Source of the DNA: Odiellus spinosus
Taxonomy: Eukaryota; Arthropoda; Arachnida; Opiliones; Phalangiidae
Assembly (NCBI GenBank): GCA_963920705.1
Contig: CAWUCO010000289.1
Location: 868,001 to 932,000 of the forward strand
Length of the DNA stretch: 64,000 nt
Reading direction: 5' to 3'
Shown here: one piece after another, positions 15,384 through 64,000 of the stretch
Layout of the letters: every line of letters begins with the position of its first letter
How positions within the stretch are numbered: the first letter of the stretch is position 1
Made by a program: the position numbers and the translations under genes
The notes under the pieces: model-generated
The model's database searches: none
What the model was told of the DNA's origin: nothing
The model's input: the letters and a program-made list of their open reading frames with translations, nothing else

Positions 15384-15451
15384 ATGCAACTTTTTGGATT
15401 CAAAAATCCTCTCATTATTGGTGAACTTCAAGAATTAAACCAAGGAACCGA

Positions 15452-15522
15452 GCATCGGTGGTTCAGTGGTAGAATGCTCGCCAGCCACGCGGGCGGCCCG
15501 GGTTCGATTCCCGGACGATACA
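15452..15522 (+). tRNA. first full-length unit of the array, probably defective
   Basis: A 71-nt tRNA-Gly body with all arms, but U33 of the anticodon loop is A (loop CAGCCAC) and the acceptor 3' strand reads ACGATAC, so two or more pairs are lost. The same U33 change recurs at 16285, one 833-bp repeat later. Confidence 0.6.
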
Positions 15523-15585
15523 ACTTTTTGGATTCAAAAATCCTCTCATTATTGGTGAACTTCAAGAATTAAACCAAGGAACCGA

Positions 15586-15635
15586 GCATCGGTGGTTCAG
15601 TGGTAGAATGCTCGCCTGCCACGCGGGCCGATGCA
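15586..15635 (+). pseudogene. T-armless tRNA-Gly(GCC), type example of the 113-bp unit
   Basis: Fifty nucleotides: acceptor GCATCGG, D arm, and an anticodon arm with loop CTGCCAC (anticodon GCC), then directly CCGATGC plus discriminator A. Compared with the full tRNA, exactly the variable region (CGGC), T stem and T loop are absent. The acceptor, D and anticodon stems all still pair. The Pol III A box is kept; the B box lay in the lost T arm. A T5 run follows two bases after the end. Not expected to be a normal elongator, but it retains an intact 5' half. Confidence 0.85.
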
Positions 15636-16058
15636 ACTTTTTGGATTCAAAAATCCTCTCGTTATTGGTGAACTTCAAGAATTAAACCAACGAACCGAGC
15701 ATCGGTGGTTCAGTGGTAGAATGCTCGCCTGCCACGCGGGCCGATGCAACTTTTTGGATTCAAAAATCCTCTCATTATTGGTGAACTTCAAGAATTAAAC
15801 CAAGGAACCGAGCATCGGTGGTTCAGTGGTAGAATGCTCGCCTGCCACGCGGGCCGATGCAACTTTTTGGATTCAAAAATCCTCTCGTTATTAGTGAACT
15901 TCAAGAATTAAACCAAGGAACCGAGCATCGGTAGTTCAGTGGTAGAATGCTCGCCTGCCACGCGGGCGGCCCGGGTTCGATTCCCAGCCGATGCAACTTT
16001 CTGGATTCAAAAATCCTCTCATTATTGGTGAACTTCAAGAATTAAACCAATGAACCGA

Positions 16059-16108
16059 GCATCGGTGGTTCAGTGGTAGAATGCTCGCCTTCCACGCGGG
16101 CCGATGCA
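16059..16108 (+). pseudogene. T-armless unit with anticodon TCC
   Basis: The anticodon loop is CTTCCAC instead of CTGCCAC, so the anticodon reads TCC, still a glycine anticodon. The same change occurs at 51450-51499 and 60103-60152. Confidence 0.75.
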
Positions 16109-17003
16109 ACTTTTTGGATTCAAAAATCCTCTCGTTATTGGTGAACTTCAAGAATTAAACCAAGGAACCGAGCATCGGTAGTTCAGTGGTAGAATGCTCG
16201 CCTGCCACGCGGGCCGATGCAACTTTTTGGATTCAAAAATCCTCTCATTATTGGTGAACTTCAAGAATTAAACCAAGGAACCGAGCATCGGTGGTTCAGT
16301 GGTAGAATGCTCGCCAGCCACGCGGGCGGCCCGGGTTCGATTCCCGGACGATGCAAATTTTGGATTCAAAAATCCTCTCATTATTGGTGAACTTCAAGAA
16401 TTAAACCAAGGAACCGAGCATCGGTGGTTCAGTGGTAGAATGCTCGCCTGCCACGCGGGCCGATGCAACTTTTTGGATTCAAAAATCCTCTCGTTATTGG
16501 TGAACTTCAAGAATTAAACCAACGAACCGAGCATCGGTGGTTCAGTGGTAGAATGCTCGCCTGCCACGCGGGCCGATGCAACTTTTTGGATTCAAAAATC
16601 CTCTCATTATTGGTACACTTCAAGAATTAAACCAAGGAACCGAGCATCGGTGGTTCAGTGGTAGAATGCTCGCCTGCCACGCGGGCCGATGCAACTTTTT
16701 GGATTCAAAAATCCTCTCGTTATTGGTGAACTTCAAGAATTAAACCAAGGAACCGAGCATCGGTAGTTCAGTGGTAGAATGCTCGCCTGCCACGCGGGCC
16801 GATGCAACTTTTTGGATTCAAAAATCCTCTCGTTATTGGTGAACTTCAAGAATTAACCCAAGGAACCGAGCATCGGTAGTTCAGTGGTAGAATGCTCGCC
16901 TGCCACGCGGGCGGCCCGGGTTCGATTCCCAGCCGATGCAACTTTCTGGATTCAAAAATCCTCTCATTATTGGTGAACTTCAAGAATTAAACCAAGGAAC
17001 CGC

Positions 17004-17045
17004 GCATCGGTGGTAGAATGCTCGCCTGCCACGCGGGCCGATGCA
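17004..17045 (+). pseudogene. 42-nt unit lacking the D loop and the T arm
   Basis: As the 50-nt form but with a further 8-nt deletion in the D arm, so GCATCGG is followed by TGGTAGAATG. Acceptor and anticodon stems are intact. The A box is destroyed. The only such copy noticed. Confidence 0.8.
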
Positions 17046-17105
17046 ACTTTTTGGATTCAAAAATCCTCTCGTTATTGAACTTCAAGAATTACACCAAGGA
17101 ACCGA

Positions 17106-17176
17106 GCATCGGTGGTTCAGTGGTAGAATGCTCGCCTGCCACGCGGGCGGCCCGGGTTCGATTCCCGGCCGATGCA
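17106..17176 (+). tRNA. tRNA-Gly(GCC), intact
   Basis: Matches the full consensus at all 71 positions. Acceptor GCATCGG/CCGATGC, anticodon GCC, A box TGGTTCAGTGG, B box GGTTCGATTCC, T5 terminator two bases downstream. It decodes GGC/GGU glycine codons if expressed. Confidence 0.9.
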
Positions 17177-20100
17177 ACTTTTTGGATTCAAAAATCCTCT
17201 CATTATTGGTGAACTTCAAGAATTAAACCAAGGAACCGAGCATCGGTAGTTCAGTGGTAGAATGCTCGCCTGCCACGCGGGCCGATGCAACTTTTTGGAT
17301 TCAAAAATCCTCTCGTTATTGGTGAACTTCAAGAATTAAACCAAGGAACCGAGCATCGGTGGTTCAGTGGTTGAATGCTCGCCTGCCACGCGGGCCGATG
17401 CAACTTTTTGGATTCAAAAATCCTCTCGTTATTGGTGAACTTCAAGAATTAAACCAACGAACCGAGCATCGGTGGCTCAGTGGTAGAATGCTCGCCTGCC
17501 ACGCGGGCGGCCCGGGTTCGATTCATGGCCGATGCAACTATTTGGATTCAAAAATGCTCTCATTATTGGTGAACTTCAAGAATTAAACCAAGGAACCGAG
17601 CATCGGTGGTTCAGTGGTAGAATGCTCGCCTGCCACGCGGGCCGATGCAAGTTTTTGGATTCAAAAATTCTCTCGTTATTGGTGAACTTCAAGAATTAAA
17701 CCAAGGAACCGAGCATCGGTAGTTCAGTGGTAGAATGCTTGCCTGCCACGCGGGCGGCCCGGGTTCGATTCCCGGCCGATGCAACTATTTGGATTCAAAA
17801 ATCCTCTCATTATTGGTGAACTTCAAGAATTAAACCAAGGAACCGAGCATCGGTGGTTCAGTGGTAGAATGCTCGCCTGCCACGCGGGCGGCCCGGGCTC
17901 GATTCCCGGCCGATGCAACTTTTTGGATTCAAAAGTCCTCTCATTATTGGTGAACTTCAAGAATTAAACCAAGGAACCGAGCATCGGTGGTTCAGTGGTA
18001 GAATGCTCGCCTGCCACGCGGGCCGATGCAACTTTTTGGATTCAAAAATCCTCTTGTTATTGGTGAACTTCAAGAATTAAACCAAGGAACCGAGCATCGG
18101 TGGTTCAGTGGTAGAATGCTCGCCTGCCACGCGGGCGGCCCGGGCTCGATTACCGGCCGATGCAACTTTTTGGATTCAAAAGTCCTCTCATTATTGGTGA
18201 ACTTCAAGAATTAAACCAAGGAACCGAGCATCGGTGGTTCAGTGGTAGAATGCTCGCCTGCCACGCGGGCCGATGCAACTTTTTGGATTCAAAAATCCTC
18301 TCGTTATTGGTGAACTTCAAGAATTAAACTAAGGAACCGAGCATCGGTGGTTCAGTGGTAGAATGCTCGCCTGCCACGCGGGCGGCCAGGGTTCGATTCC
18401 CGGCCGATGCAACTTTTTGGATTCAAAAATCCTCTCATTATTGGTGAACTTCAAGAATTAAACCAAGGAACCGAGCATCGGTGGTTCAGTGGCAGAATGC
18501 TCGCCTGCCACGCGGGCCGATGCAACTTTTTGGATTCAAAAATCCTCTCGTTATTGGTGAACTTCAAGAATTAAACCAACGAACCGAGCATCGGTGGTTC
18601 AGTGGTTGAATGCTTGCCTGCCACGCGGGCTGATGCAACTATTTGGATTCAAAAATCCTCTCATTATTGGTGAACTTCAAGAATTAAACCAAGGAACCGA
18701 GCATCGGTGGTTCAGTGGTAGAATGCTCGCCTGCCACGCGGGCCGATGCAACTTTTTGGATTCAAAAATCCTCTCATTATTGGTGAACTTCAAGAATTAA
18801 ACCAAGGAACCGAGCTACGGTGGTTCAGTGGTAGAATGCTCGCCTGCCACGCGGGCCGATGCAACTTTTTGGATTCAAAAATCCTCTCGTTATTGGTGAA
18901 CTTCAAGAATTAAACCAACGAACCGAGCATCGGTGGTTCAGTGGTTGAATGCTCGCCTGCCACGCGGGCCGATGCAACTATTTGGATTCAAAAATCCTCT
19001 CATTATTGGTGAACTTCAAGAATTAAACCAAGGAACCGAGCATCGGTGGTTCAGTGGTAGAATGCTCGCCTGCCATGCGGGCCGATGCAACTTTTTGGAT
19101 TCAAAAATCCTCTCATTATTGGTGAACTTCAAGAATTAAACCAAGGAACCGAGCATCGGTAGTTCAGTGGTAGAATGCTCGCCTGCCACGCGGGCCGATG
19201 CAACTTTTTGGATTCAAAAATCCTCTCGTTATTGGTGAACTTCAAGAATTAAACCAAGGAACCGAGCATCGGTGGTTCAGTGGTTGAATGCTCGCCTGCC
19301 ACGCGGGCCGATGCAACTTTTTGGATTCAAAAATCCTCTCGTTATTGGTGAACTTCAAGAATTAAACCAACGAACCGAGCATCGGTGGTTCAGTGGTTGA
19401 ATGCTTGCCTGCCACGCGGGCTGATGCAACTATTTGGATTCAAAAATCCTCTCATTATTGGTGAACTTCAAGAATTAAACCAAGGAACCGAGCATCGGTG
19501 GTTCAGTGGTAGAATGCTCGCCTGCCACGCGGGCCGATGCAATTTTTTGGATTCAAAAATCCTCTCATTATTGGTGAACTTCAAGAATTAAACCAAGGAA
19601 CCGAGCATCGGTGGTTCAGTGGTAGAATGCTCGCCTGCCACGCGGGCCGATGCAACTTTTTGGATTCAAAAATCCTCTCGTTATTGGTGAACTTCAAGAA
19701 TTAAACCAACGAACCGAGCATCGGTGGTTCAGTGGTTGAATGCTCGCCTGCCACGCGGGCCGATGCAACTATTTGGATTCAAAAATCCTCTCATTATTGG
19801 TGAACTTCAAGAATTAAACCAAGGAACCGAGCATCGGTGGTTCAGTGGTAGAATGCTCGCCTGCCATGCGGGCCGATGCAACTTTTTGGATTCAAAAATC
19901 CTCTCATTATTGGTGAACTTCAAGAATTAAACCAAGGAACCGAGCATCGGTAGTTCAGTGGTAGAATGCTCGCCTGCCACGCGGGCCGATGCAACTTTTT
20001 GGATTCAAAAATCCTCTCGTTATTGGTGAACTTCAAGAATTAAACCAAGGAACCGAGCATCGGTGGTTCAGTGGTTGAATGCTCGCCTGCCACGCGGGCC

Positions 20101-21539
20101 GATGCAACTTTTTGGATTCAAAAATCCTCTCGTTATTGGTGAACTTCAAGAATTAAACCAACGAACCGAGCATCGGTGGTTCAGTGGTAGAATGCTCGTC
20201 TGCCACGCGGGCGGCCCGGGTTCGATTCCTGGCCGATGCAACTATTTGGATTCAAAAATCCTCTCATTATTGGTGAACTTCAAGAATTAAACCAAGGAAC
20301 CGTGCATCGGTGGTTCAGTGGTAGAATGCTCGCCTGCCACGCGGGCCGATGCAACTTTTTGGATTCAAAAATTCTCTCGTTATTGGTGAACTTCAAGAAT
20401 TAAACCAAGGAACCGAACATCGGTAGTTCAGTGGTAGAATGCTTGCCTGCCACGCGGGCGGCCCGGGTTCGATTCCCGGCCGATGCAACTATTTGGATTC
20501 AAAAATCCTCTCATTATTGGTGAACTTCAAGAATTAAACCAAGGAACCGAGCATCGGTGGTTCGGTGGTAGAATGCTCGCCTGCCACGCGGGCCGATGCA
20601 TTTTTTTTGGATTCAAAAATCCTCTCGTTATTGGTGAACTTCAAGAATTAAACCAAGGAACCGAACATCGGTAGTTCAGTGGTAGAATGCTTGCCTGCCA
20701 CGCGGGCGGCCCGGGTTCGATTCCCGGCCGATGCAACTATTTGGATTCAAAAATCCTCTCATTATTGGTGAACTTCAAGAATTAAACCAAGGAACCGAGC
20801 ATCGGTGGTTCAGTGGTAGAATGCTCGCCTGCCACGCGGGCGGCCCGGGCTCGATTCCCGGCCGATGCAACTTTTTGGATTCAAAAGTCCTCTCATTATT
20901 GGTGAACTTCAAGAATTAAACCAAGGAACCGAGCATCGGTGGTTCAGTGGTAGAATGCTCGCCTGCCACGCGGGCCGATGCAACTTTTTGGATTCAAAAA
21001 TCCTCTTGTTATTGGTGAACTTCAAGAATTAAACCAAGGAACCGAGCATCGGTGGTTCAGTGGTAGAATGCTCGCCTGCCACGCGGGCGGCCCGGGCTCG
21101 ATTCCCGGCCGATGCAACTTTTTGGATTCAAAAGTCCTCTCATTATTGGTGAACTTCAAGAATTAAACCAAGGAACCGAGCATCGGTGGTTCAGTGGTAG
21201 AATGCTCGCCTGCCACGCGGGCCGATGCAACTTTTTGGATTCAAAAATCCTCTCGTTATTGGTGAACTTCAAGAATTAAACCAAGGAACCGAGCATCGGT
21301 GGTTCAGTGGTAGAATGCTCGCCTGCCACGCGGGCGGCCAGGGTTCGATTCCCGGCCGATGCAACTTTTTGGATTCAAAAATCCTCTCATTATTGGTGAA
21401 CTTCAAGAATTAAACCAAGGAACCGAGCATCGGTGGTTCAGTGGTAGAATGCTCGCCTGCCACGCGGGCCGATGCAACTTTTTGGATTCAAAAATCCTCT
21501 CGTTATTGGTGAACTTCAAGAATTAAACCAACGAACCGA

Positions 21540-21589
21540 GCATCGGTGGTTCAGTGGTTGAATGCTTGCCTGGCACGCGGGCTGATGCA
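21540..21589 (+). pseudogene. T-armless unit with anticodon GGC
   Basis: The anticodon loop is CTGGCAC (GGC, an alanine anticodon) and the stem base changes to CTTGC. Repeated at about 24267 and 26138 through the higher-order repeats. Confidence 0.7.
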
Positions 21590-22754
21590 ACTATTTGGAT
21601 TCAAAAATCCTCTCATTATTGGTGAACTTCAAGAATTAAACCAAGGAACCGAGCATCGGTGGTTCAGTGGTAGAATGCTCGCCTGCCACGCGGGCCGATG
21701 CAACTTTTTGGATTCAAAAATCCTCTCATTATTGGTGAACTTCAAGAATTAAACCAAGGAACCGAGCATCGGTGGTTCAGTGGTAGAATGCTCGCCTGCC
21801 ACGCGGGCCGATGCAACTTTTTGGATTCAAAAATCCTCTCGTTATTGGTGAACTTCAAGAATTAAACCAACGAACCGTGCATCGGTGGTTCAGTGGTAGA
21901 ATGCTCGTCTGCCACGCGGGCGGCCCGGGTTCGATTCCTGGCCGATGCAACTATTTGGATTCAAAAATCCTCTCATTATTGGTGAACTTCAAGAATTAAA
22001 CCAAGGAACCGTGCATCGGTGGTTCAGTGGTAGAATGCTCGCCTGCCACGCGGGCCGATGCAACTTTTTGGATTCAAAAATTCTCTCGTTATTGGTGAAC
22101 TTCAAGAATTAAACCAAGGAACCGAACATCGGTAGTTCAGTGGTAGAATGCTTGCCTGCCACGCGGGCGGCCCGGGTTCGATTCCCGGCCGATGCAACTA
22201 TTTGGATTCAAAAATCCTCTCATTATTGGTGAACTTCAAGAATTAAACCAAGGAACCGAGCATCGGTGGTTCGGTGGTAGAATGCTCGCCTGCCACGCGG
22301 GCCGATGCATTTTTTTTGGATTCAAAAATCCTCTCGTTATTGGTGAACTTCTAGAATTAAACCAAGGAACCGAGCATCGGTAGTTCAGTGGTAGAATGCT
22401 CGCCTGCCACGCGGGCGGCCCGGGCTCGAATCCCGGCCGATGCAACTTTTTGGATTCAAAAATCCTCTCATTATTGGTGAACTTCAAGAATTAAACCAAG
22501 GAACCGAGCATCGGTGGTTCAGTGGTAGAATGCTCGCCTGCCACGCGGGCCGATGCAACTTTTTGGATTCAAAAATCCTCTCGTTATTGGTGAACTTCAA
22601 GAAGTAAACCAAGGAACCGAGCATCGGTAGTTCAGTGGTAGAATGCTCGCCTGCCACGCGGGCGGCCCGGGCTCGATTCCCGGCCGATGCAACTTTTTGG
22701 ATTCAAAAGTCCTCTCATTATTGGTGAACTTCAAGAATTAAACCAAGGAACCGA

Positions 22755-22825
22755 GCATCGGTGGTTCAGTGGTAGAATGCTCGCCTGCCACGCGGGCGGC
22801 CCGGGTTCGATTCCCGGCCGATGCA
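22755..22825 (+). tRNA. tRNA-Gly(GCC), intact
   Basis: Full 71-nt consensus with A box, B box and T5 terminator. Confidence 0.9.
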
Positions 22826-24964
22826 ACTTTTTGGATTCAAAAATCCTCTCATTATTGGTGAACTTCAAGAATTAAACCAAGGAACCGAGCATCGGTGGTT
22901 CAGTGGTAGAATGCTCGCCTGCCACGCGGGCCGATGCAACTTTTTGGATTCAAAAATCCTCTCGTTATTGGTGAATTTCAAGAATTAAACCAACGAACCG
23001 AGCATCGGTGGTTCAGTGGTTGAATGCTCGCCTGCCACGCGGACCGATGCAACTATTTGGATTCAAAAATCCTCTCATTATTGGTGAACTTCAAGAATTA
23101 AACCAAGGAACCGTGCATCGGTGGTTCAGTGGTAGAATGCTCGCCTGCCACGCGGGCCGATGCAACTTTTTGGATTCAAAAATCCTCTCATTATTGGTGA
23201 ACTTCAAGAATTAAACCAAGGAACCGAGCATCGGTGGTTCAGTGGTAGAATGCTCGCCTGCCACGCGGGCCGATGCAACTTTTTGGATTCAAAAATCCTC
23301 TCGTTATTGGTGAACTTCAAGAATTAAACCAAGGAACCGAGCATCGGTGGTTCAGTGGTTGAATGCTCGCCTGCCACGCGGGCCGATGCAACTATTTGGA
23401 TTCAAAAATCCTCTCATTATTGGTGAACTTCAAGAATTAAACCAAGGAACCGAGCATCGGTGGTTCAGTGGTAGAATGCTCGCCTGCCATGCGGGCCGAT
23501 GCAACTTTTTGGATTCAAAAATCCTCTCATTATTGGTGAACTTCAAGAATTAAACCAAGGAACCGAGCATCGGTAGTTCAGTGGTAGAATGCTCGCCTGC
23601 CACGCGGGCCGATGCAACTATTTGGATTCAAAAATCCTCTCGTTATTGGTGAACTTCAAGAATTAAACCAAGGAACCGAGCATCGGTGGTTCAGTGGTTG
23701 AATGCTCGCCTGCCACGCGGGCCGATGCAACTTTTTGGATTCAAAAATCCTCTCGTTATTGGTGAACTTCAAGAATTAAACCAACGAACCGAGTATCGGT
23801 GGTTCAGTGGTAGAATGCTCGCCTGCCACGCGGGCGGCCCGGGTTCGATTCCTGGCCGAAGCAACTATTTGGATTCAAAAATCCTCTCATTATTGGTGAA
23901 CTTCAAGAATTAAACCAAGAAACCGAGCATCGGTGGTTCAGTGGTAGAATGATCGCCTGCCACGCGGGCCGATGCAACTTTTTGGATTCAATAATTCTCT
24001 CGTTATTGGTGAACTTCAAGAATTAAACCAAGGAACCGAGCATCGGTGGTTCAGTGGTAGAATGCTCGCCTGCCATGCGGGCCGATGCAACTTTTTGGAT
24101 TCAAAAATCCTCTCATTATTGGTGAACTTCAAGAATTAAACCATGGAACCGAGCATCGGTGGTTCAGTGGTAGAATGCTCGCCTGCCACGCGGGCCGATG
24201 CAACTTTTTGGATTCAAAAATCCTCTCGTTATTGGTGAACTTCAAGAATTAAACCAACGAACCGAGCATCGGTGGTTCAGTGGTTGAATGCTTGCCTGGC
24301 ACGCGGGCTGATGCAACTATTTGGATTCAAAAATCCTCTCATTATTGGTGAACTTCAAGAATTAAACCAAGGAACCGAGCATCGGTGGTTCAGTGGTAGA
24401 ATGCTCGCCTGCCACGCGGGCCGATGCAACTTTTTGGATTCAAAAATCCTCTCGTTATTGGTGAACTTCAAGAATTAAACCAAGGAACCGAGCATCGGTG
24501 GTTCAGTGGTAGAATGCTCGCCTGCCACGCGGGCCGATGCAACTTTTTGGATTCAAAAATCCTCTCGTTATTGGTGAACTTCAAGAATTAAACCAAGGAA
24601 CCGAGCATCGGTGGTTCAGTGGTTGAATGCTCGCCTGCCACGCGGGCCGATGCAACTTTTTGGATTCAAAAATCCTCTCGTTATTGGTGAACTTCAAGAA
24701 TTAAACCAAGGAACCGAGCATCGGTGGTTCAGTGGTAGAATGCTCGCCTGCCACGCGGGCCGATGCAACTTTTTGGATTCAAAAATCCTCTCGTTATTGG
24801 TGAACTTCAAGAATTAAACCAAGGAACCGAGCATCGGTGGTTCAGTGGTAGAATGCTCGCGTGCCACGCGGGCGGCCCGGGTTCGATTCCCGGCCGCTGC
24901 AACTTTTTGGATTCAAAAATCCTCTCATTATTGGTGAACTTCAAGAATTAAACCAAGGAACCGA

Positions 24965-25035
24965 GCATCGGTGGTTCAGTGGTAGAATGCTCGCCTGCCA
25001 CGCGGGCGGCCCGGGTTCGATTCCCGGCCGATGCA
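24965..25035 (+). tRNA. tRNA-Gly(GCC), intact
   Basis: Full 71-nt consensus with T5 terminator. The preceding unit (24831-24901) is also full length but has CCGCTGC in its acceptor and G32. Confidence 0.9.
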
Positions 25036-28000: not shown

Positions 28001-28255
28001 GGAACCGAGCATCGGTAGTTCAGTGGTAGAATGCTCGCCTGCCACGCGGGCGGCCCGGGTTCGATTCCCGGCCGATGCAACTATTTGGATTCAAAAATCC
28101 TCTCATTATTGGTGAACTTCAAGAATTAAACCAAGGAACCGAGCATCGGTGGTTCAGTGGTAGAATGCTCGCCTGCCACGCGGGCCGATGCAACTTTTTG
28201 GATTCAAAAATCCTCTCGTTATTGGTGAACTTCAAGAATTAAAGCAAGGAACCGA

Positions 28256-28326
28256 GCATCGGTGGTTCAGTGGTAGAATGCTCGCCTGCCACGCGGGCGG
28301 CCCGGGTTCGATTCCCGGCCGATGCA
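28256..28326 (+). tRNA. tRNA-Gly(GCC), intact body, terminator altered
   Basis: Full 71-nt consensus, but the following T5 is TATTT, so Pol III may read into the next unit. Confidence 0.85.
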
Positions 28327-47851: not shown

Positions 47852-47913
47852 GCATCGGTGGTTCAGTGGTAGAATGCTCGCGGGCGGCTCGGGTTCGATT
47901 CCCGGCCGATGCA
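47852..47913 (+). pseudogene. 62-nt anticodon-loop-less tRNA-Gly
   Basis: Second of the class, 125 bp after the first, with an intact GCATCGG/CCGATGC acceptor, T5 terminator and both Pol III boxes. The class recurs to the end of the window, often with D-arm changes (GGTGCAGCGGTAGTATG). Confidence 0.85.
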
Positions 47914-50900: not shown

Positions 50901-51449
50901 TCCTCTCATTATTGGTGAACTTCAAGAATTAAACCAGGGAACCGAGCATCGGTGGTTCAGTGGTAGAATGCTCGCCTGCCACGAGGGCCGATGCAACTTT
51001 TTGGATTCAAAAATCCTCTCGTTATTGGTGAACTTCAAGAATTAAACCACAGAACCGAGCATCGGTGGTTCAGTGGTAGAATGCTCGCCTGCCACGCGGG
51101 CGGCCCGGGTGAGATTCCCGGCCGTTGAACTTTTTGGATTCAAAAATCCTCTCGTTATTGGTGAACTTCAAGAATTAAACCAAGGAACCGAGCATCGGTG
51201 GTACAGTGGTAGAATGCTCGCCTGCCACGCGGGCGGACCGGGTTCGATTCACGGCCGATGCAACTTTTTGGATTCAAAAATCCTCTCGTTATTGGTGAGC
51301 TTCAAGAATTTAGCCAAGGAACCGAGCATCGGTGGTGCAGCGGTAGTATGCTCGCGGGCGGCTCGGGTTCGATTCCCGGCCGATGCAACTTTTTGGATTC
51401 AAAAATCCTCTCATTATTGGTGAACTTCAAGAATTAAACAGGGAACCGA

Positions 51450-51499
51450 GCATCGGTGGTTCAGTGGTAGAATGCTCGCCTTCCACGCGGGCCGATGCA
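51450..51499 (+). pseudogene. T-armless unit with anticodon TCC
   Basis: Loop CTTCCAC. Also at 60103-60152 in the 8.67-kb duplicate. Confidence 0.75.
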
Positions 51500-52703
51500 A
51501 CTTTTTGGATTCAAAATCCTCTCGTTATTGGTGAACTTCAAGAATTAAACCACAGAACCGAGCGTCGGTGGTTCAGTGGTAGAATGCTCGCCTGCCACGC
51601 GGGCCGATGCAACTTTTTGGATTCAAAAATCCTCTCGTTATTGGTGAGCTTCAAGAATTACACCAAGGAGCCGAGCATCGGTGGTTCAGTGGTAAAATGC
51701 TCGCCTGCCACGCGGGCAGCCCGGGTTTGATTCCCGGTCGATGCAACTTTTTGGATTCAAAAATCCTCTCGTTATTGGTGAACTTCAAGAATTAAACCAA
51801 GGAACCGAGCATCGGTGGTTCAGTGGTAGAATGCTCGCCTGCCACGCGGGCGGCTCGGGTTCGATTCCCGGCCGATGCAACTATTTGGATTCAAAAATCC
51901 ACTCGTTATTGGTGAACTTCAAGAATTAAACCAAGGAACCGAGCATCGGTGGTTCAGTGTTAGAATGCTCGCCTGCCACGCGGGCCGATGCATCTTTTTG
52001 GATTCAAAAATCCTCTCGTTATTGGTGAACTTCAAGAATTAAACCAAAGAACCTAGCATCGGTGGTTCAGTGGTACAATGCTCGCCTGCCACGCGGGCGG
52101 ACCGGGTTCGATTCCCGGCCGATGATACTTTTTGGATTCAAAAATCCTCTCGTTATTGGTGAACTTCAAGAATTAAATCAAGGAAGCGAGCATCGGTGGT
52201 TCAGTGGTAGAATGCTCGCCTGCCACGCGGGCGGACCGGGTTTGATTCCCGGCCGATGCAACTTTTTGGATTCAAAAATCCACTCGTTATTGGTGAAATT
52301 CAAGAATTAAACCAAGTAACCGAGCATCGGTGGTTCAGTGGTAGAATGCTCGCCTGCCACGCGGGCGGACCGGGTTTGATTCCCGGCCGATGGAACTTTT
52401 TGGATTCAAAAATCCCCTCATTATTGGTGAACTTCAAGAATTAAACCAAGGAACCGAGCATCGGTGGTTAGTGGTAGAATGCTCGCCTGCCACGCGGGCC
52501 GATGCAACTTTTTGGAGTCAAAAATCCTCTCGTTATTGGTGAACTTCAAGAATTAACCCAAGGAACCGAGCATCGGTGGTTCAGTGGTAGAATGCTCGCC
52601 TGCCATGCGGGCGGCCCGGGTTCGATTCCCGGCCGATGCAACTATTTGGATTCAAAAATCCACTCGTTATTGGTGAACTTCAAGAATTAAACCAAGGAAC
52701 CGA

Positions 52704-52774
52704 GCATCGGTGGTTCAGTGGTAGAATGCTCGCCTGCAACGCGGGCGGACCGGGTTTGATTCCCGGCCGATGCA
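52704..52774 (+). tRNA. full-length tRNA-Gly body with anticodon GCA, T loop damaged
   Basis: The loop is CTGCAAC (GCA, cysteine). The T loop is TTTGATT, which loses C56 and alters the B box. Followed by T5. Confidence 0.5.
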
Positions 52775-55209
52775 ACTTTTTGGATTCAAAAATCCTCTCA
52801 TTATTGGTGAACTTCAAGAATTAAGCCAAGGAACCGAGCATCGTTGGTTCAGTGGTAGAATGCTCGCCTGCCACGCGGGCCGATGCAACTTTTTGGATTC
52901 AAAAATCCTCTCGTTATTGGTGAACTTGAAGAATTAAACCAAAGAACCGAGCATCGGTGGTTCAGTGGTAGAATGCTCGCCTGCCACGCGGGCGGCCCGA
53001 GTTCGATTCCCGGCCGATGCAACTTTTTGGATTCAAAAATCCTCTCATTATTGGTGAACTTCAAGAATTAAACCAAGGAACCGAGCATCGGTGGTTCAGT
53101 GGTAGAATGCTCGCCTGCACGCGGGCGGACCGGGTTTGATTCCCGGCCGATGCAACTTTTTGGATTCAAAAATCCTCTCATTATTGGTGAACTTCAAGAA
53201 TTAAACCAAGGAACCGAGCATCGGTGGTTCAGTGGTAGAATGCTCGCCTGCCACGCGGGCCGATGCAACTTTTTGGATTCAAAAATCCTCTCGTTATTGG
53301 TGAGCTTCAAGAATTTAACCAAGGAACCGAGCATCGGTGGTTCAGTGGTAGAATGCTCGCGGGCGGCTCGGGTTCGATTCCCGGCCGATGCAACTTTTTG
53401 GATTCAAAAATCCTCTCATTATTGGTGAACTTCAAGAATTAAACCAGGGAACCGAGCATCGGTGGTTCAGTGGTAGAATGCTCGCCTGCCACGCGGGCCG
53501 ATGCAACTTTTTGGATTCAAAAATCCTCTCGTTATTGGTGAACTTCAAGAATTAAACCACAGAACCGAGCATCGGTGGTTCAGTGGTAGAATGCTCGCCT
53601 GCCACGCGGGCGGCCCGGGTGAGATTCCCGGCCGTTGCAACTTTTTGGATTCAAAAATCCTCTCGTTATTGGTGAACTTCAAGAATTAAACCAAGGAACC
53701 GAGCATCGGTGGTACAGTGGTAGAATGCTCGCCTGCCACGCGGGCGGACCGGGTTCGATTCACGGCCGATGCAACTTTTTGGATTCAAAAATCCTCTCGT
53801 TATTGGTGAGCTTCAAGAATTTAGCCAAGGAACCGAGCATCGGTGGTGCAGTGGTAGTATGCTCGCGGGCGGCTCGGGTTCGATTCCCGGCCGATGCAAC
53901 TTTTTGGATTCAAAAATCCTCTCATTATTGGTGAACTTCAAGAATTAAACCAGGGAACCGAGCATCGGTGGTTCAGTGGTAGAATGCTCGCCTGCCACGC
54001 GGGCCGATGCAACTTTTTGGATTCAAAATCCTCTCGTTATTGGTGAACTTCAAGAATTAAACCACAGAACCGAGCATCGGTGGTTCAGTGGTAGAATGCT
54101 CGCCTGCCACGCGGGCGGCCCGGGTGAGATTCCCGGCCGTTGCAACTTTTTGGATTCAAAAATCCTCTCGTTATTGGTGAACTTCAAGAATTAAACCAAA
54201 GAACCTAGCATCGGTGGTTCAGTGGTACAATGCTCGCCTGCCACGCGGGCGGACCGGGTTCGATTCCCGGCCGATGATACTTTTTGGATTCAAAAATCCT
54301 CTCGTTATTGGTGAGCTTCAAGAATTTAACCAAGGAACCGAGCATCGGTGGTTCAGTGGTAGAATGCTCGCGGGCGGCTCGGGTTCGATTCCCGGCCGAT
54401 GGAACTTTTTGGATTCAAAAATCCTCTCGTTATTGGTGAACTTCAAGATTTTAACCAAGGAACCGAGCATCGGTGGTTCAGTGGTAGAATGCTCGCGGGC
54501 GGCTCGGGTTCGATTCCCGGCCGATGCAACTTTTTGGATTCAAAAATCCTCTCATTATTGGTGAACTTCAAGAATTAAACCAGGGAACCGAGCATCGGTG
54601 GTTCAGTGGTAGAATGCTCGCCTGCCACGCGGGCCGATGCAACTTTTTGGATTCAAAAATCCTCTCGTTATTGGTGAGCTTCAAGAATTTAGCCAAGGAA
54701 CCGAGCATCGGTGGTGCAGTGGTAGTATGCTCGCGGGCGGCTCGGGTTCGATTCCCGGCCGATGCAACTTTTTGGATTCAAAAATCCTCTCATTATTGGT
54801 GAACTTCAAGAATTAAACCAGGGAACCGAGCATCGGTGGTTCAGTGGTAGAATGCTCGCCTGCCACGCGGGCCGATGCAACTTTTTGGATTCAAAATCCT
54901 CTCGTTATTGGTGAACTTCAAGAATTAAACCACAGAACCGAGCATCGGTGGTTCAGTGGTAGAATGCTCGCCTGCCACGCGGGCGGCCCGGGTGAGATTC
55001 CCGGCCGTTGCAACTTTTTGGATTCAAAAATCCTCTCGTTATTGGTGAACTTCAAGAATTACACTAAGGAACCGAGCATCGGTGGTTCAGTGGTAGAATG
55101 CTCGCCTGCCACGCGGGCAGCCCGGGTTTGATTCCCGGTCGATGCAACTTTTTGGATTCAAAAATCCTCTCGTTATTGGTGAACTTCAAGAATTAAACCA
55201 AGGAACCGA

Positions 55210-55280
55210 GCATCGGTGGTTCAGTGGTAGAATGCTCGCCTGCCACGCGGGCGGCCCGGGTTCGATTCCCGGCCGATGCA
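55210..55280 (+). tRNA. tRNA-Gly(GCC), intact body, terminator altered
   Basis: Full consensus, followed by ACTATTT. Confidence 0.85.
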
Positions 55281-55590
55281 ACTATTTGGATTCAAAAATC
55301 CACTCGTTATTGGTGAATTTCAAGAATTAAACCAAGGAACCGAGCATCGGTGGTTCAGTGTTAGAATGCTCGCCTGCCACGCGGGCCGATGCATCTTTTT
55401 GGATTCAAAAATCCTCTCGTTATTGGTGAACTTCAAGAATTAAACCAAAGAACCTAGCATCGGTGGTTCAGTGGTACAATGCTCGCCTGCCACGCGGGCG
55501 GACCGGGTTCGATTCCCGGCCGATGATACTTTTTGGATTCAAAAATCCTCTCGTTATTGGTGAACTTCAAGAATTAAATCAAGGAAGCGA

Positions 55591-55661
55591 GCATCGGTGG
55601 TTCAGTGGTAGAATGCTCGCCTGCCACGCGGGCGGCCCGGGTTCGATTCCCGGCCGATGCA
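55591..55661 (+). tRNA. tRNA-Gly(GCC), intact body, terminator altered
   Basis: Full consensus, followed by ACTATTT. It lies in an extra 381-bp duplication (55463 versus 55844). Confidence 0.85.
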
Positions 55662-56485
55662 ACTATTTGGATTCAAAAATCCACTCGTTATTGGTGAATT
55701 TCAAGAATTAAACCAAGGAACCGAGCATCGGTGGTTCAGTGTTAGAATGCTCGCCTGCCACGCGGGCCGATGCATCTTTTTGGATTCAAAAATCCTCTCG
55801 TTATTGGTGAACTTCAAGAATTAAACCAAAGAACCTAGCATCGGTGGTTCAGTGGTACAATGCTCGCCTGCCACGCGGGCGGACCGGGTTCGATTCCCGG
55901 CCGATGATACTTTTTGGATTCAAAAATCCTCTCGTTATTGGTGAACTTCAAGAATTAAATCAAGGAAGCGAGCATCGGTGGTTCAGTGGTAGAATGCTCG
56001 CCTGCCACGCGGGCGGACCGGGTTTGATTCCCGGCCGATGCAACTTTTTGGATTCAAAAATCCACTCGTTATTGGTGAAATTCAAGAATTAAACCAAGTA
56101 ACCGAGCATCGGTGGTTCAGTGGTAGAATGCTCGCCTGCCACGCGGGCGGACCGGGTTTGATTCCCGGCCGATGGAACTTTTTGGATTCAAAAATCCCCT
56201 CATTATTGGTGAACTTCAAGAATTAAACCAAGGAACCGAGCATCGGTGGTTAGTGGTAGAATGCTCGCCTGCCACGCGGGCCGATGCAACTTTTTGGAGT
56301 CAAAAATCCTCTCGTTATTGGTGAACTTCAAGAATTAACCCAAGGAACCGAGCATCGGTGGTTCAGTGGTAGAATGCTCGCCTGCCATGCGGGCGGCCCG
56401 GGTTCGATTCCCGGCCGATGCAACTATTTGGATTCAAAAATCCACTCGTTATTGGTGAACTTCAAGAATTAAACCAAGGAACCGA

Positions 56486-56556
56486 GCATCGGTGGTTCAG
56501 TGGTAGAATGCTCGCCTGCAACGCGGGCGGACCGGGTTTGATTCCCGGCCGATGCA
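56486..56556 (+). tRNA. full-length tRNA-Gly body with anticodon GCA, T loop damaged
   Basis: Copy of 52704 at +3782 bp. Confidence 0.5.
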
Positions 56557-59500
56557 ACTTTTTGGATTCAAAAATCCTCTCATTATTGGTGAACTTCAAG
56601 AATTAAGCCAAGGAACCGAGCATCGTTGGTTCAGTGGTAGAATGCTCGCCTGCCACGCGGGCCGATGCAACTTTTTGGATTCAAAAATCCTCTCGTTATT
56701 GGTGAACTTGAAGAATTAAACCAAAGAACCGAGCATCGGTGGTTCAGTGGTAGAATGCTCGCCTGCCACGCGGGCGGCCCGAGTTCGATTCCCGGCCGAT
56801 GCAACTTTTTGGATTCAAAAATCCTCTCATTATTGGTGAACTTCAAGAATTAAACCAAGGAACCGAGCATCGGTGGTTCAGTGGTAGAATGCTCGCCTGC
56901 CACGCGGGCGGACCGGGTTTGATTCCCGGCCGATGCAACTTTTTGGATTCAAAAATCCTCTCATTATTGGTGAACTTCAAGAATTAAACCAAGGAACCGA
57001 GCATCGGTGGTTCAGTGGTAGAATGCTCGCCTGCCACGCGGGCCGATGCAACTTTTTGGATTCAAAAATCCTCTCGTTATTGGTGAGCTTCAAGAATTTA
57101 ACCAAGGAACCGAGCATCGGTGGTTCAGTGGTAGAATGCTCGCGGGCGGCTCGGGTTCGATTCCCGGCCGATGCAACTTTTTGGATTCAAAAATCCTCTC
57201 ATTATTGGTGAACTTCAAGAATTAAACCAGGGAACCGAGCATCGGTGGTTCAGTGGTAGAATGCTCGCCTGCCACGCGGGCCGATGCAACTTTTTGGATT
57301 CAAAAATCCTCTCGTTATTGGTGAACTTCAAGAATTAAACCACAGAACCGAGCATCGGTGGTTCAGTGGTAGAATGCTCGCCTGCCACGCGGGCGGCCCG
57401 GGTGAGATTCCCGGCCGTTGCAACTTTTTGGATTCAAAAATCCTCTCGTTATTGGTGAACTTCAAGAATTAAACCAAGGAACCGAGCATCGGTGGTACAG
57501 TGGTAGAATGCTCGCCTGCCACGCGGGCGGACCGGGTTCGATTCACGGCCGATGCAACTTTTTGGATTCAAAAATCCTCTCGTTATTGGTGAGCTTCAAG
57601 AATTTAGCCAAGGAACCGAGCATCGGTGGTGCAGTGGTAGTATGCTCGCGGGCGGCTCGGGTTCGATTCCCGGCCGATGCAACTTTTTGGATTCAAAAAT
57701 CCTCTCATTATTGGTGAACTTCAAGAATTAAACCAGGGAACCGAGCATCGGTGGTTCAGTGGTAGAATGCTCGCCTGCCACGCGGGCCGATGCAACTTTT
57801 TGGATTCAAAATCCTCTCGTTATTGGTGAACTTCAAGAATTAAACCACAGAACCGAGCATCGGTGGTTCAGTGTTAGAATGCTCGCCTGCCACGCGGGCC
57901 GATGCATCTTTTTGGATTCAAAAATCCTCTCGTTATTGGTGAACTTCAAGAATTAAACCAAAGAACCTAGCATCGGTGGTTCAGTGGTACAATGCTCGCC
58001 TGCCACGCGGGCGGACCGGGTTCGATTCCCGGCCGATGATACTTTTTGGATTCAAAAATCCTCTCGTTATTGGTGAACTTCAAGAATTAAATCAAGGAAG
58101 CGAGCATCGGTGGTTCAGTGGTAGAATGCTCGCCTGCCACGCGGGCGGACCGGGTTTGATTCCCGGCCGATGCAACTTTTTGGATTCAAAAATCCACTCG
58201 TTATTGGTGAAATTCAAGAATTAAACCAAGTAACCGAGCATCGGTGGTTCAGTGGTAGAATGCTCGCCTGCCACGCGGGCGGACCGGGTTTGATTCCCGG
58301 CCGATGGAACTTTTTGGATTCAAAAATCCCCTCATTATTGGTGAACTTCAAGAATTAAACCAAGGAACCGAGCATCGGTGGTTAGTGGTAGAATGCTCGC
58401 CTGCCACGCGGGCCGATGCAACTTTTTGGAGTCAAAAATCCTCTCGTTATTGGTGAACTTCAAGAATTAACCCAAGGAACCGAGCATCGGTGGTTCAGTG
58501 GTAGAATGCTCGCCTGCCATGCGGGCGGCCCGGGTTCGATTCCCGGCCGATGCAACTTTTTGGATTCAAAAATCCTCTCATTATTGGTGAACTTCAAGAA
58601 TTAAACCAAGGAACCGAGCATCGGTGGTTCAGTGGTAGAATGCTCGCCTGCCACGCGGGCCGATGCAACTTTTTGGATTCAAAAATCCTCTCGTTATTGG
58701 TGAGCTTCAAGAATTTAGCCAAGGAACCGAGCATCGGTGGTGCAGCGGTAGTATGCTCGCGGGCGGCTCGGGTTCGATTCCCGGCCGATGCAACTTTTTG
58801 GATTCAAAAATCCTCTCATTATTGGTGAACTTCAAGAATTAAACCAGGGAACCGAGCATCGGTGGTTCAGTGCTACAATGCTCGCCTGCCACAAGGGCCG
58901 ATGCAACTTTTTGGATTCAAAATCCTCTCGTTATTGGTGAACTTCAAGAATTAAACCACAGAACCGAGCATCGGTGGTTCAGTGGTAGAATGCTCGCCTG
59001 CCACGCGGGCGGCCCGGGTGAGATTCCCGGCCGTTGCAACTTTTTGGATTCAAAAATCCTCTCGTTATTGGTGAACGTCAAGAATTACACCAAGGAGCCG
59101 AGCATCGGTGGTTCAGTGGTAAAATGCTCGCCTGCCACGCGGGCAGCCCGGGTTTGATTCCCGGCCGATGCAACTTTTTGGATTCAAAAATCCTCTCATT
59201 ATTGGTGAACTACAAGAATTAAACCAAGGAACCGAGCATCGGTGGTTCAGTGGTAGAATGCTCGCCTACCACGCGGGCCGATGCAACTTTTTGGATTCAA
59301 AAATCCTCTCGTTATTGGTGAGCTTCAAGAATTTAACCAAGGAACCGAGCATCGGTGGTTCAGTGGTAGAATGCTCGCGGGCGGCTCGGGTTCGATTCCC
59401 GGCCGATGGAACTTTTTGGATTCAAAAATCCTCTCGTTATTGGTGAACTTCAAGATTTTAACCAAGGAACCGAGCATCGGTGGTTCAGTGGTAGAATGCT

Positions 59501-60102
59501 CGCGGGCGGCTCGGGTTCGATTCCCGGCCGATGCAACTTTTTGGATTCAAAAATCCTCTCATTATTGGTGAACTTCAAGAATTAAACCAGGGAACCGAGC
59601 ATCGGTGGTTCAGTGGTAGAATGCTCGCCTGCCACGAGGGCCGATGCAACTTTTTGGATTCAAAAATCCTCTCGTTATTGGTGAACTTCAAGAATTAAAC
59701 CACAGAACCGAGCATCGGTGGTTCAGTGGTAGAATGCTCGCCTGCCACGCGGGCGGCCCGGGTGAGATTCCCGGCCGTTGAACTTTTTGGATTCAAAAAT
59801 CCTCTCGTTATTGGTGAACTTCAAGAATTAAACCAAGGAACCGAGCATCGGTGGTACAGTGGTAGAATGCTCGCCTGCCACGCGGGCGGACCGGGTTCGA
59901 TTCACGGCCGATGCAACTTTTTGGATTCAAAAATCCTCTCGTTATTGGTGAGCTTCAAGAATTTAGCCAAGGAACCGAGCATCGGTGGTGCAGCGGTAGT
60001 ATGCTCGCGGGCGGCTCGGGTTCGATTCCCGGCCGATGCAACTTTTTGGATTCAAAAATCCTCTCATTATTGGTGAACTTCAAGAATTAAACAGGGAACC
60101 GA

Positions 60103-60152
60103 GCATCGGTGGTTCAGTGGTAGAATGCTCGCCTTCCACGCGGGCCGATGCA
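60103..60152 (+). pseudogene. T-armless unit with anticodon TCC
   Basis: Duplicate of 51450-51499, one 8.65-kb period downstream. Confidence 0.75.
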
Positions 60153-61377
60153 ACTTTTTGGATTCAAAATCCTCTCGTTATTGGTGAACTTCAAGAATTA
60201 AACCACAGAACCGAGCGTCGGTGGTTCAGTGGTAGAATGCTCGCCTGCCACGCGGGCGGCCCGGGTGAGATTCCCGGCCGTTGCAACTTTTTGGATTCAA
60301 AAATCCTCTCGTTATTGGTGAACTTCAAGAATTACACCAAGGAGCCGAGCATCGGTGGTTCAGTGGTAAAATGCTCGCCTGCCACGCGGGCAGCCCGGGT
60401 TTGATTCCCGGTCGATGCAACTTTTTGGATTCAAAAATCCTCTCGTTATTGGTGAACTTCAAGAATTAAACCAAGGAACCGAGCATCGGTGGTTCAGTGG
60501 TAGAATGCTCGCCTGCCACGCGGGCGGCTCGGGTTCGATTCCCGGCCGATGCAACTATTTGGATTCAAAAATCCACTCGTTATTGGTGAACTTCAAGAAT
60601 TAAACCAAGGAACCGAGCATCGGTGGTTCAGTGTTAGAATGCTCGCCTGCCACGCGGGCCGATGCATCTTTTTGGATTCAAAAATCCTCTCGTTATTGGT
60701 GAACTTCAAGAATTAAACCAAAGAACCTAGCATCGGTGGTTCAGTGGTACAATGCTCGCCTGCCACGCGGGCGGACCGGGTTCGATTCCCGGCCGATGAT
60801 ACTTTTTGGATTCAAAAATCCTCTCGTTATTGGTGAACTTCAAGAATTAAATCAAGGAAGCGAGCATCGGTGGTTCAGTGGTAGAATGCTCGCCTGCCAC
60901 GCGGGCGGACCGGGTTTGATTCCCGGCCGATGCAACTTTTTGGATTCAAAAATCCACTCGTTATTGGTGAAATTCAAGAATTAAACCAAGTAACCGAGCA
61001 TCGGTGGTTCAGTGGTAGAATGCTCGCCTGCCACGCGGGCGGACCGGGTTTGATTCCCGGCCGATGGAACTTTTTGGATTCAAAAATCCCCTCATTATTG
61101 GTGAACTTCAAGAATTAAACCAAGGAACCGAGCATCGGTGGTTAGTGGTAGAATGCTCGCCTGCCACGCGGGCCGATGCAACTTTTTGGAGTCAAAAATC
61201 CTCTCGTTATTGGTGAACTTCAAGAATTAACCCAAGGAACCGAGCATCGGTGGTTCAGTGGTAGAATGCTCGCCTGCCATGCGGGCGGCCCGGGTTCGAT
61301 TCCCGGCCGATGCAACTATTTGGATTCAAAAATCCACTCGTTATTGGTGAACTTCAAGAATTAAACCAAGGAACCGA

Positions 61378-61448
61378 GCATCGGTGGTTCAGTGGTAGAA
61401 TGCTCGCCTGCAACGCGGGCGGACCGGGTTTGATTCCCGGCCGATGCA
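61378..61448 (+). tRNA. full-length tRNA-Gly body with anticodon GCA, T loop damaged
   Basis: Copy of 52704 at +8674 bp. Confidence 0.5.
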
Positions 61449-63883
61449 ACTTTTTGGATTCAAAAATCCTCTCATTATTGGTGAACTTCAAGAATTAAGC
61501 CAAGGAACCGAGCATCGTTGGTTCAGTGGTAGAATGCTCGCCTGCCACGCGGGCCGATGCAACTTTTTGGATTCAAAAATCCTCTCGTTATTGGTGAACT
61601 TGAAGAATTAAACCAAAGAACCGAGCATCGGTGGTTCAGTGGTAGAATGCTCGCCTGCCACGCGGGCGGCCCGAGTTCGATTCCCGGCCGATGCAACTTT
61701 TTGGATTCAAAAATCCTCTCATTATTGGTGAACTTCAAGAATTAAACCAAGGAACCGAGCATCGGTGGTTCAGTGGTAGAATGCTCGCCTGCACGCGGGC
61801 GGACCGGGTTTGATTCCCGGCCGATGCAACTTTTTGGATTCAAAAATCCTCTCATTATTGGTGAACTTCAAGAATTAAACCAAGGAACCGAGCATCGGTG
61901 GTTCAGTGGTAGAATGCTCGCCTGCCACGCGGGCCGATGCAACTTTTTGGATTCAAAAATCCTCTCGTTATTGGTGAGCTTCAAGAATTTAACCAAGGAA
62001 CCGAGCATCGGTGGTTCAGTGGTAGAATGCTCGCGGGCGGCTCGGGTTCGATTCCCGGCCGATGCAACTTTTTGGATTCAAAAATCCTCTCATTATTGGT
62101 GAACTTCAAGAATTAAACCAGGGAACCGAGCATCGGTGGTTCAGTGGTAGAATGCTCGCCTGCCACGCGGGCCGATGCAACTTTTTGGATTCAAAAATCC
62201 TCTCGTTATTGGTGAACTTCAAGAATTAAACCACAGAACCGAGCATCGGTGGTTCAGTGGTAGAATGCTCGCCTGCCACGCGGGCGGCCCGGGTGAGATT
62301 CCCGGCCGTTGCAACTTTTTGGATTCAAAAATCCTCTCGTTATTGGTGAACTTCAAGAATTAAACCAAGGAACCGAGCATCGGTGGTACAGTGGTAGAAT
62401 GCTCGCCTGCCACGCGGGCGGACCGGGTTCGATTCACGGCCGATGCAACTTTTTGGATTCAAAAATCCTCTCGTTATTGGTGAGCTTCAAGAATTTAGCC
62501 AAGGAACCGAGCATCGGTGGTGCAGTGGTAGTATGCTCGCGGGCGGCTCGGGTTCGATTCCCGGCCGATGCAACTTTTTGGATTCAAAAATCCTCTCATT
62601 ATTGGTGAACTTCAAGAATTAAACCAGGGAACCGAGCATCGGTGGTTCAGTGGTAGAATGCTCGCCTGCCACGCGGGCCGATGCAACTTTTTGGATTCAA
62701 AATCCTCTCGTTATTGGTGAACTTCAAGAATTAAACCACAGAACCGAGCATCGGTGGTTCAGTGGTAGAATGCTCGCCTGCCACGCGGGCGGCCCGGGTG
62801 AGATTCCCGGCCGTTGCAACTTTTTGGATTCAAAAATCCTCTCGTTATTGGTGAACTTCAAGAATTAAACCAAAGAACCTAGCATCGGTGGTTCAGTGGT
62901 ACAATGCTCGCCTGCCACGCGGGCGGACCGGGTTCGATTCCCGGCCGATGATACTTTTTGGATTCAAAAATCCTCTCGTTATTGGTGAGCTTCAAGAATT
63001 TAACCAAGGAACCGAGCATCGGTGGTTCAGTGGTAGAATGCTCGCGGGCGGCTCGGGTTCGATTCCCGGCCGATGGAACTTTTTGGATTCAAAAATCCTC
63101 TCGTTATTGGTGAACTTCAAGATTTTAACCAAGGAACCGAGCATCGGTGGTTCAGTGGTAGAATGCTCGCGGGCGGCTCGGGTTCGATTCCCGGCCGATG
63201 CAACTTTTTGGATTCAAAAATCCTCTCATTATTGGTGAACTTCAAGAATTAAACCAGGGAACCGAGCATCGGTGGTTCAGTGGTAGAATGCTCGCCTGCC
63301 ACGCGGGCCGATGCAACTTTTTGGATTCAAAAATCCTCTCGTTATTGGTGAGCTTCAAGAATTTAGCCAAGGAACCGAGCATCGGTGGTGCAGTGGTAGT
63401 ATGCTCGCGGGCGGCTCGGGTTCGATTCCCGGCCGATGCAACTTTTTGGATTCAAAAATCCTCTCATTATTGGTGAACTTCAAGAATTAAACCAGGGAAC
63501 CGAGCATCGGTGGTTCAGTGGTAGAATGCTCGCCTGCCACGCGGGCCGATGCAACTTTTTGGATTCAAAATCCTCTCGTTATTGGTGAACTTCAAGAATT
63601 AAACCACAGAACCGAGCATCGGTGGTTCAGTGGTAGAATGCTCGCCTGCCACGCGGGCGGCCCGGGTGAGATTCCCGGCCGTTGCAACTTTTTGGATTCA
63701 AAAATCCTCTCGTTATTGGTGAACTTCAAGAATTACACTAAGGAACCGAGTATCGGTGGTTCAGTGGTAGAATGCTCGCCTGCCACGCGGGCAGCCCGGG
63801 TTTGATTCCCGGTCGATGCAACTTTTTGGATTCAAAAATCCTCTCGTTATTGGTGAACTTCAAGAATTAAACCAAGGAACCGA

Positions 63884-63954
63884 GCATCGGTGGTTCAGTG
63901 GTAGAATGCTCGCCTGCCACGCGGGCGGCCCGGGTTCGATTCCCGGCCGATGCA
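63884..63954 (+). tRNA. tRNA-Gly(GCC), intact body, terminator altered
   Basis: Full consensus, followed by ACTATTT. Last complete full-length copy before the window ends. Confidence 0.85.
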
Positions 63955-64000
63955 ACTATTTGGATTCAAAAATCCACTCGTTATTGGTGAATTTCAAGAA

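Follow-up and report, generated by a model that had tools for sequence, protein, structure and literature searches.

Tandem arrays of tRNA genes and satellites made of tRNA sequence are, as such, already known. A 2010 paper stated that tandem repeats of tRNAs had by then been reported in Entamoeba only (PMC2888827); in Hydractinia, tRNA arrays are described whose near-identical copies number in the tens or even in the hundreds (PMC11067881), and in maize the satellite tRNASAT_ZM forms a 91.95-kb array on chr4L of Mo17 (PMC10335936). Here we describe an array derived from tRNA-Gly(GCC) in the arachnid Odiellus spinosus (genome assembly of 443 Mb in 286 contigs). The window, i.e. the whole stretch of DNA analysed, comprises 64,000 bp of contig C280 (C280:868001-932000). 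We propose that a tRNA-Gly gene was turned into a satellite by unequal exchange, that a sister array on contig C2 has been kept, and that the array in the window is decaying through the loss of hairpin arms, a reading to which we assign a probability of roughly 0.8.

A tandem array of full-length and truncated tRNA-Gly units

With an anchor placed in the tRNA we found 361 tRNA-Gly-like bodies, all on the + strand and head to tail, from position 15,384 to the window edge. No bodies were found by another anchor on the minus strand of the window or in positions 1-15,300. Array DNA amounts to approximately 44.1 kb in two parts (Table 1), and the 361 listed units comprise 169 distinct sequences. 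Scores of Tandem Repeats Finder (TRF) on the array reach 27,103, and there are 156 Rfam tRNA matches in the window, of which 150 are listed and 143 of these are 70-71 nt long at 44-68 bits. These scores and matches together exclude a chance origin of the array. ARAGORN reported 154 tRNA genes; both lists take in some truncated units, and seven listed Rfam rows are 50 nt long. The initial annotation had described a one-strand, head-to-tail satellite derived from tRNA-Gly(GCC), of about 44 kb and 330-390 units, and our counts agree with it: this is a long head-to-tail repeat array of the kind expected of satellite DNA. It had also called the array uninterrupted and described every unit as a tRNA-Gly body with one and the same spacer, yet a 4,484-bp element splits the array and most units are not complete.

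We divided the array into units at the beginning of each spacer and, after excluding the element-bearing stretch and a remnant of 48 nt at the window edge, classed 360 units: 144 full (131-135 bp), 191 T-armless (105-114 bp) and 25 without anticodon (M units, 125 bp). One classed unit, at 33,889, starts with 15 nt of the inserted element, while the 361st body, which the element separates from its spacer, is T-armless by eye and stands outside the class counts. A full unit consists of a complete tRNA-Gly(GCC) and a spacer of ~63 bp. In the T-armless body, a 21-nt segment spanning the variable loop and the T arm, and with it box B, is missing, and the stems of acceptor, D and anticodon are retained in sequence; in the M body, 9 nt are missing, anticodon included. 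Box B (GGTTCGATTCC) is accordingly found in 0/191 T-armless units, in 82/144 full units and in 25/25 M units. The classes are unevenly distributed. The share of T-armless units falls from 84/117 in the left part to 63/108 between 33,904 and 47,000 (the other 45 being full) and to 44/135 between 47,000 and 64,000, where 66 units are full and all 25 M units lie (47669-64000).

Both deletions take out all or part of a tRNA hairpin, and each has 3 bp of microhomology at its ends, a value equalled by 3% (21-nt deletion) and 10% (9-nt deletion) of all placements in the unit. Folded as DNA, the deleted stretches exceed shuffled sequences only slightly in stability (z -0.5 and -1.8). Among the 64 distinct 113-bp units, six are exactly a 134-bp full unit minus the 21 nt and 24 are one base off. 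We propose that the T-armless monomers, which have no box B, and the anticodon-less ones arose by deletion between direct repeats of 3 bp located at two tRNA hairpins, through replication slippage or microhomology repair.

Two versions of the locus and the dynamics of the array

A second version of the locus is found on contig C9, with a left flank ~99.1% identical over 10 kb and a right flank identical over 9.5 kb. The main array has 400 units on C280 and 383 on C9, and on both contigs it is followed by an insert of ~12.5 kb and 22 further units, giving 425 bodies by anchor on C280. The true array is hence larger than its part in the window, as had been expected from its reaching the edge, although modestly so. 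Aligning the two contigs unit by unit paired 325 units, 297 of them identical, with blocks of 65, 5 and 2 units plus three single units present on C280 alone and blocks of 34, 14, 7, 2 and 1 on C9 alone; these figures vary with the gap costs chosen. The contigs share 136 of 212 unit haplotypes, and many variant units occur in the same order on both. In 39,746 aligned nt they differ by 20 substitutions in the spacer, 19 in the tRNA and one indel. The simplest reading is that C280 and C9 are two haplotypes. The locus displays the homogenisation and higher-order repeats of satellite DNA and, provided that C280 and C9 are alleles, its allelic copy-number differences as well.

Within the window, exact duplications reach 26 units (Table 1), in a wider duplicated region that starts at 49,253. 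The longest exact repeat measures 3,428 bp, from 51,649, at a lag of 8,674 bp. One could suspect from this repeat that a short array was inflated, or two haplotypes mixed, during assembly. However, the array is present on both C280 and C9, between flanks that match and with similar numbers of units, and unit haplotypes are shared, many variant units being in the same order, which makes an artefact very unlikely. We favour unequal exchange and conversion that would expand and shrink the array in many-unit blocks, with truncated monomers amplified along with the remainder.

At least one unit seems to have switched class by tract replacement after duplication. The T-armless unit at 51,497 and its full-length counterpart at 60,150 have in common a base present in 2/360 units; at 54,009 there is a third related unit, full-length and without this rare base. 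The direction of the switch was probably from full to T-armless. Because the unit at 51,497 departs from the simple deletion product at one further base, it is better explained by tract replacement, with another T-armless unit as donor, than by a new deletion.

Constraint on the window array and on its sister array

We compared divergence between tRNA and spacer in the full units of 134 bp (137/144, 79 distinct haplotypes). Per distinct haplotype, the tRNA is about as variable as the spacer (0.0290 vs 0.0284; two-sided column permutation p 0.96). Considering all copies, divergence is 0.0274 in the tRNA and 0.0318 in the spacer. Per site, the tRNA has 0.83 minor alleles and the spacer 0.80. The most variable parts of the tRNA are the T arm (17 minor alleles at 17 sites) and the 3' acceptor strand (10 at 6 sites). 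Unmutated bodies are found in 21/144 full units. A tRNA that varies as much as its spacer and is so rarely unmutated indicates that most of the array behaves as satellite DNA and not as tRNA genes; selection on tRNA function would here be gone or weak. Excluding two full bodies with indels leaves 142 scorable ones: 54 combine a GCC anticodon with a full set of stem pairs (G-U allowed), 36 of the 54 have strict boxes A and B in addition, and 15 a TTTT in the trailer too. The array is, as annotated, a satellite derived from tRNA-Gly(GCC), but one whose several hundred units are mostly not intact genes.

Among full units, box B and the terminator are both intact in 32/144, with box B only in 50, terminator only in 59 and neither in 3 (Fisher p 3e-13); per distinct haplotype, the same categories hold 17, 25, 25 and 3. 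We do not claim this anticorrelation as a real effect. A single base change in linked lineages accounts for most of the broken terminators, and the pattern is therefore read as hitch-hiking. Transitions number 14 at the 22 CpG positions of the unit vs 35 at the remaining 112 positions, which is only suggestive of CpG decay.

A search with the tRNA body revealed a sister tRNA-Gly(GCC) array on C2 (Table 1), where 129/209 bodies are unmutated, compared with 21/144 full units in the window (Fisher p 1e-19). All stem pairs and the GCC anticodon are present in 175/209 bodies, 160 of which also have both boxes and 118 TTTT as well, and no T-armless junction was found in this array at up to two mismatches. 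Its spacings are mainly 164, 193 and 135 bp (166/208), the longer spacers reiterating a short internal segment. Between distinct haplotypes, the body is more conserved than the spacer in units of 164 bp (0.0107 vs 0.0282; one-sided p 0.012) and of 193 bp (0.0094 vs 0.0328; one-sided p 0.003). Conservation of the body above the spacer, as expected of a functional array, is hence seen on C2 in two of three unit lengths, and not in the full units of the window.

The 66-nt consensus spacer of C2 agrees with the window spacer at 60/66 columns. One exact 20-mer of the spacer has 758 copies in the genome (339 forward, 419 reverse), and the arrays on C280, C9 and C2 hold 339, 327 and 92; as counts are equal strand by strand, all exact copies lie within these three arrays. 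The intact 3' end of the tRNA occurs 367 times: 96 on C280, 84 on C9, 179 on C2 and eight elsewhere. The latter fit six dispersed tRNA-Gly(GCC) genes, all unmutated, plus two places on contig C1, where a tRNA-Gly(CCC) gene occupies one of them. Searching for a progenitor, we compared the flanks of the six dispersed GCC genes and the CCC gene with the spacer and obtained only chance-level similarity (best E 0.14). SINE-derived satellites are known in reptiles (PMC10702118), and an array could in principle descend from a short interspersed nuclear element (SINE) with a tRNA head. Yet a full unit comprises an entire, unmodified tRNA-Gly and 63 bp of flanking DNA, and dispersed copies of a tRNA plus body, as a SINE would leave, did not appear with the exact spacer 20-mer (758/758 inside arrays; mismatched copies were not sought). 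We thus consider a SINE origin extremely improbable, and favour a tRNA-Gly(GCC) gene that, together with ~63 bp of flank, would have become the satellite monomer.

The whole array could alternatively be a functional gene bank for tRNA-Gly(GCC) in which truncated units are harmless passengers. The 144 full units, and among them the 54 with paired stems and anticodon and the 21 unmutated ones, would speak for such a bank. We regard it as unlikely: the tRNA is not significantly more conserved than the spacer in full units, stems, anticodon, both strict boxes and TTTT coincide in 15/142 alone, and intact copies are kept elsewhere, in all six dispersed genes and in most of the C2 array. It is the C2 array, with its related spacer and under selection, that would probably be the source of this tRNA together with the six dispersed genes.

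Several observations weigh against the decay of the window array beside a kept C2 array. First, the TTTT trailer is present in 11 of the 21 unmutated full units, so that the window array could still supply some tRNA-Gly. Second, the truncated classes show a lower variability in the tRNA than in the spacer: 0.0166 vs 0.0332 in T-armless units (167/191 units, p 0.11) and 0.0119 vs 0.0374 in M units (25 units, 7 haplotypes, p 0.049). This was not predicted, and shared ancestry with exchange is the sole explanation we can offer. Third, the C2 array is not homogeneous: its 135-bp units (22 units, 5 haplotypes) show no significant difference between body and spacer (0.0197 vs 0.0250, p 0.42), and it contains 12 extra matches to the 5' half without a full body (221 vs 209). 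Fourth, when only placements within the tRNA body are considered, the microhomology of the deletions is matched by 4/48 (21-nt) and 9/60 (9-nt). Fifth, each of the 325 units that pair in the C280-C9 alignment belongs to the same class on both contigs, meaning that class changes are rare, and the two contigs could represent a segmental duplication instead of haplotypes. Finally, units are kin by descent, and our permutation and Fisher p-values, computed without a tree, overstate their independence.

As another alternative, the truncated units could themselves be in use. Box A and the T run of a T-armless unit could act with box B of the next full unit to yield 50-nt T-armless RNAs; like all that we say on transcription of these arrays, this is predicted from sequence. 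Such an arrangement would resemble that of yeast U6. A run of at least four Ts follows 178/191 T-armless units, a T-armless unit is followed by a full one in 95/359 neighbouring pairs, and none of 200 shuffles folds as well as the consensus 50-nt RNA (z -2.8). The M units add box B and a T run in 25/25 cases each, on top of their low tRNA divergence. However, the predicted fold of the T-armless RNA retains the acceptor stem while another hairpin supplants the D and anticodon stems, the difference between tRNA columns and spacer in T-armless units is not significant, and the M units amount to four distinct bodies. We therefore give such a use of truncated units very little credence, and retain decay as the preferred reading.

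Other arrays and features, and comparison with known systems

A genome-wide Rfam tRNA search, in which 63 of 60,283 candidates were scored, showed dense matches on contig C17. They belong to a tandem tRNA-Ala array in which two anticodons are mixed (Table 1). In its first 10 kb, the part analysed, 58 tRNA bodies are spaced 128-160 bp apart, with anticodons CGC (33), TGC (24) and CAA (1), that is, 57 Ala and one Leu. The G3:U70 pair, an identity element of tRNA-Ala, is present in 58/58 bodies. Here too the body is more conserved than the spacer, both in 159-bp units (0.0145 vs 0.0580; one-sided p 0.001) and in 160-bp units (0.0190 vs 0.0628; one-sided p 0.003), which together make up 52/57 spacings. 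To judge from its sequence, this array looks maintained. Ten small probes of other Rfam matches gave two Ala (one at the far end of the C17 array), the rest being Cys, Lys and Thr; contig C3 carries two tRNA-Cys genes 171 bp apart.

That the arrays found are of Gly and Ala suggests a demand from a protein rich in both. One could imagine that satellite-size tRNA-Gly(GCC) and tRNA-Ala arrays feed the mass translation of such a protein, e.g. a silk, and that the window array is a former supply, relieved by C2 and now decaying. We find this doubtful, and put it forward tentatively. The limitation to Gly and Ala holds for the arrays found, and arrays of other tRNAs are possible. A search of the genome with the silk families PF16763, PF07294 and PF05849 gave no match, but neither did the controls, and the result is silent on absence. 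If the supply hypothesis were true, kept and dying tRNA arrays could be compared within one genome. The number of tRNA genes is often taken as a measure of translation demand, and the window holds 361 bodies that are mostly truncated or mutated. This one genome contains a kept and a decaying tRNA-Gly array whose spacers are related, the decaying one in two versions, and a tRNA-Ala array, which makes it testable how tRNA arrays grow, what maintains them and whether Gly/Ala supply was the cause.

Two copies of the 4.5-kb element lie in the window (Table 1). C9 lacks both at the corresponding positions, where the empty sites show insertion with a 2-bp AA/TT duplication. The element has a hairpin near one end, and its ends are similar to those of the ~12.5-kb insert that, outside the window, lies between the main array and the 22 further units on C280 as well as C9. 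To the left of the array, a long interspersed nuclear element (LINE) at 8308-12386, on the minus strand, encodes an endonuclease and a reverse transcriptase, with upstream frames matching Baculo_FP and a PHD finger; among the 120 protein relatives listed of 319, none exceeds 38% identity. A 14-bp minisatellite occupies 7283-7844 (40 copies, 99% matches). An Ala-rich repetitive open reading frame (14572-15216, with 36- and 27-bp repeats) ends ~170 bp before the array and is a candidate gene; neither it nor one other open reading frame of the window had relatives at E 0.001.

Table 1. Coordinates of arrays, units and elements (positions in the window unless a contig is named)
Feature	Coordinates	Strand	Remarks
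Left array part	15384..29419	+	117 classed units (84 T-armless, 33 full) plus one element-split T-armless body
Right array part	33904..64000	+	To window end; array continues beyond
Transposon-like element, 4,484 bp	29420..33903	- (relative to copy at 689-5151)	Inserted in spacer
Second element copy	689..5151	+	Inverted relative to first, 95.8% identical
26-unit block, first copy	51744..55010	+	Unit-for-unit identical to 60,418-63,684
26-unit block, second copy	60418..63684	+	Lag 8,674 bp
T-armless unit with full-length counterpart	51497..51609	+	Class switch after duplication
Full-length counterpart	60150..60283	+	Pairs with 51,497-51,609
Unmutated tRNA-Gly(GCC) body, example	17106..17176	+	71 nt, TTTTT trailer
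T-armless body, example	15586..15635	+	50 nt
M unit, example	53266..53390	+	125 bp, 9 nt including anticodon deleted
Sister tRNA-Gly(GCC) array	C2:32,793,063-32,830,883		37.8 kb, 209 bodies, found with tRNA body
Tandem tRNA-Ala array	C17:8319825-8337906		Anticodons CGC and TGC mixed; first 10 kb analysed

The array has no match in the collections that we searched: neither the spacer as an exact pattern in viral and genome contig collections, nor a 238-bp array stretch by blastn against plasmids, nor the T-armless junction in the viral contig collection. Likewise, in the open-licence PubMed Central (PMC) literature searched, we came across no nuclear array that is mostly T-armless and accompanied by a maintained sister array. 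The closest systems each share some traits with the locus. Maize tRNASAT_ZM is, like the window array, a nuclear satellite array named after a tRNA, but belongs to a plant, and the comparison is one of name and array size alone (PMC10335936). In Entamoeba, tandem tRNA arrays are also kept similar, most likely by concerted evolution according to the authors; yet there are 25 array types with up to five tRNA genes per unit, they make up more than 10% of the genome and almost all tRNA genes are arrayed (PMC2652664), whereas the window array has one tRNA per unit, mostly truncated units, and six further GCC genes dispersed in the genome. Hydractinia and Nematostella are, like our species, animals with tandem tRNA arrays (PMC11067881); the window array differs in its 63-bp spacer and in the truncation of most units. 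Xenopus also has tandem tRNA genes, but these are described as oocyte-specific and active (PMC11500080). In the human tRNA variable number tandem repeat (VNTR) at 1q23.3, tRNA tandem-repeat copy number differs between alleles, as it would here, although its units are of 7.3 kb, number 9-43 per allele and bind CTCF (PMC4041453). Lastly, tRNA-related tandem repeats are described in amphibians and reptiles, several with units of ~200-360 nt and one family, Hy/polIII, described without box B; these repeats contain only tRNA-like or SINE parts, while the full units of the window are an exact tRNA-Gly (PMC10702118).

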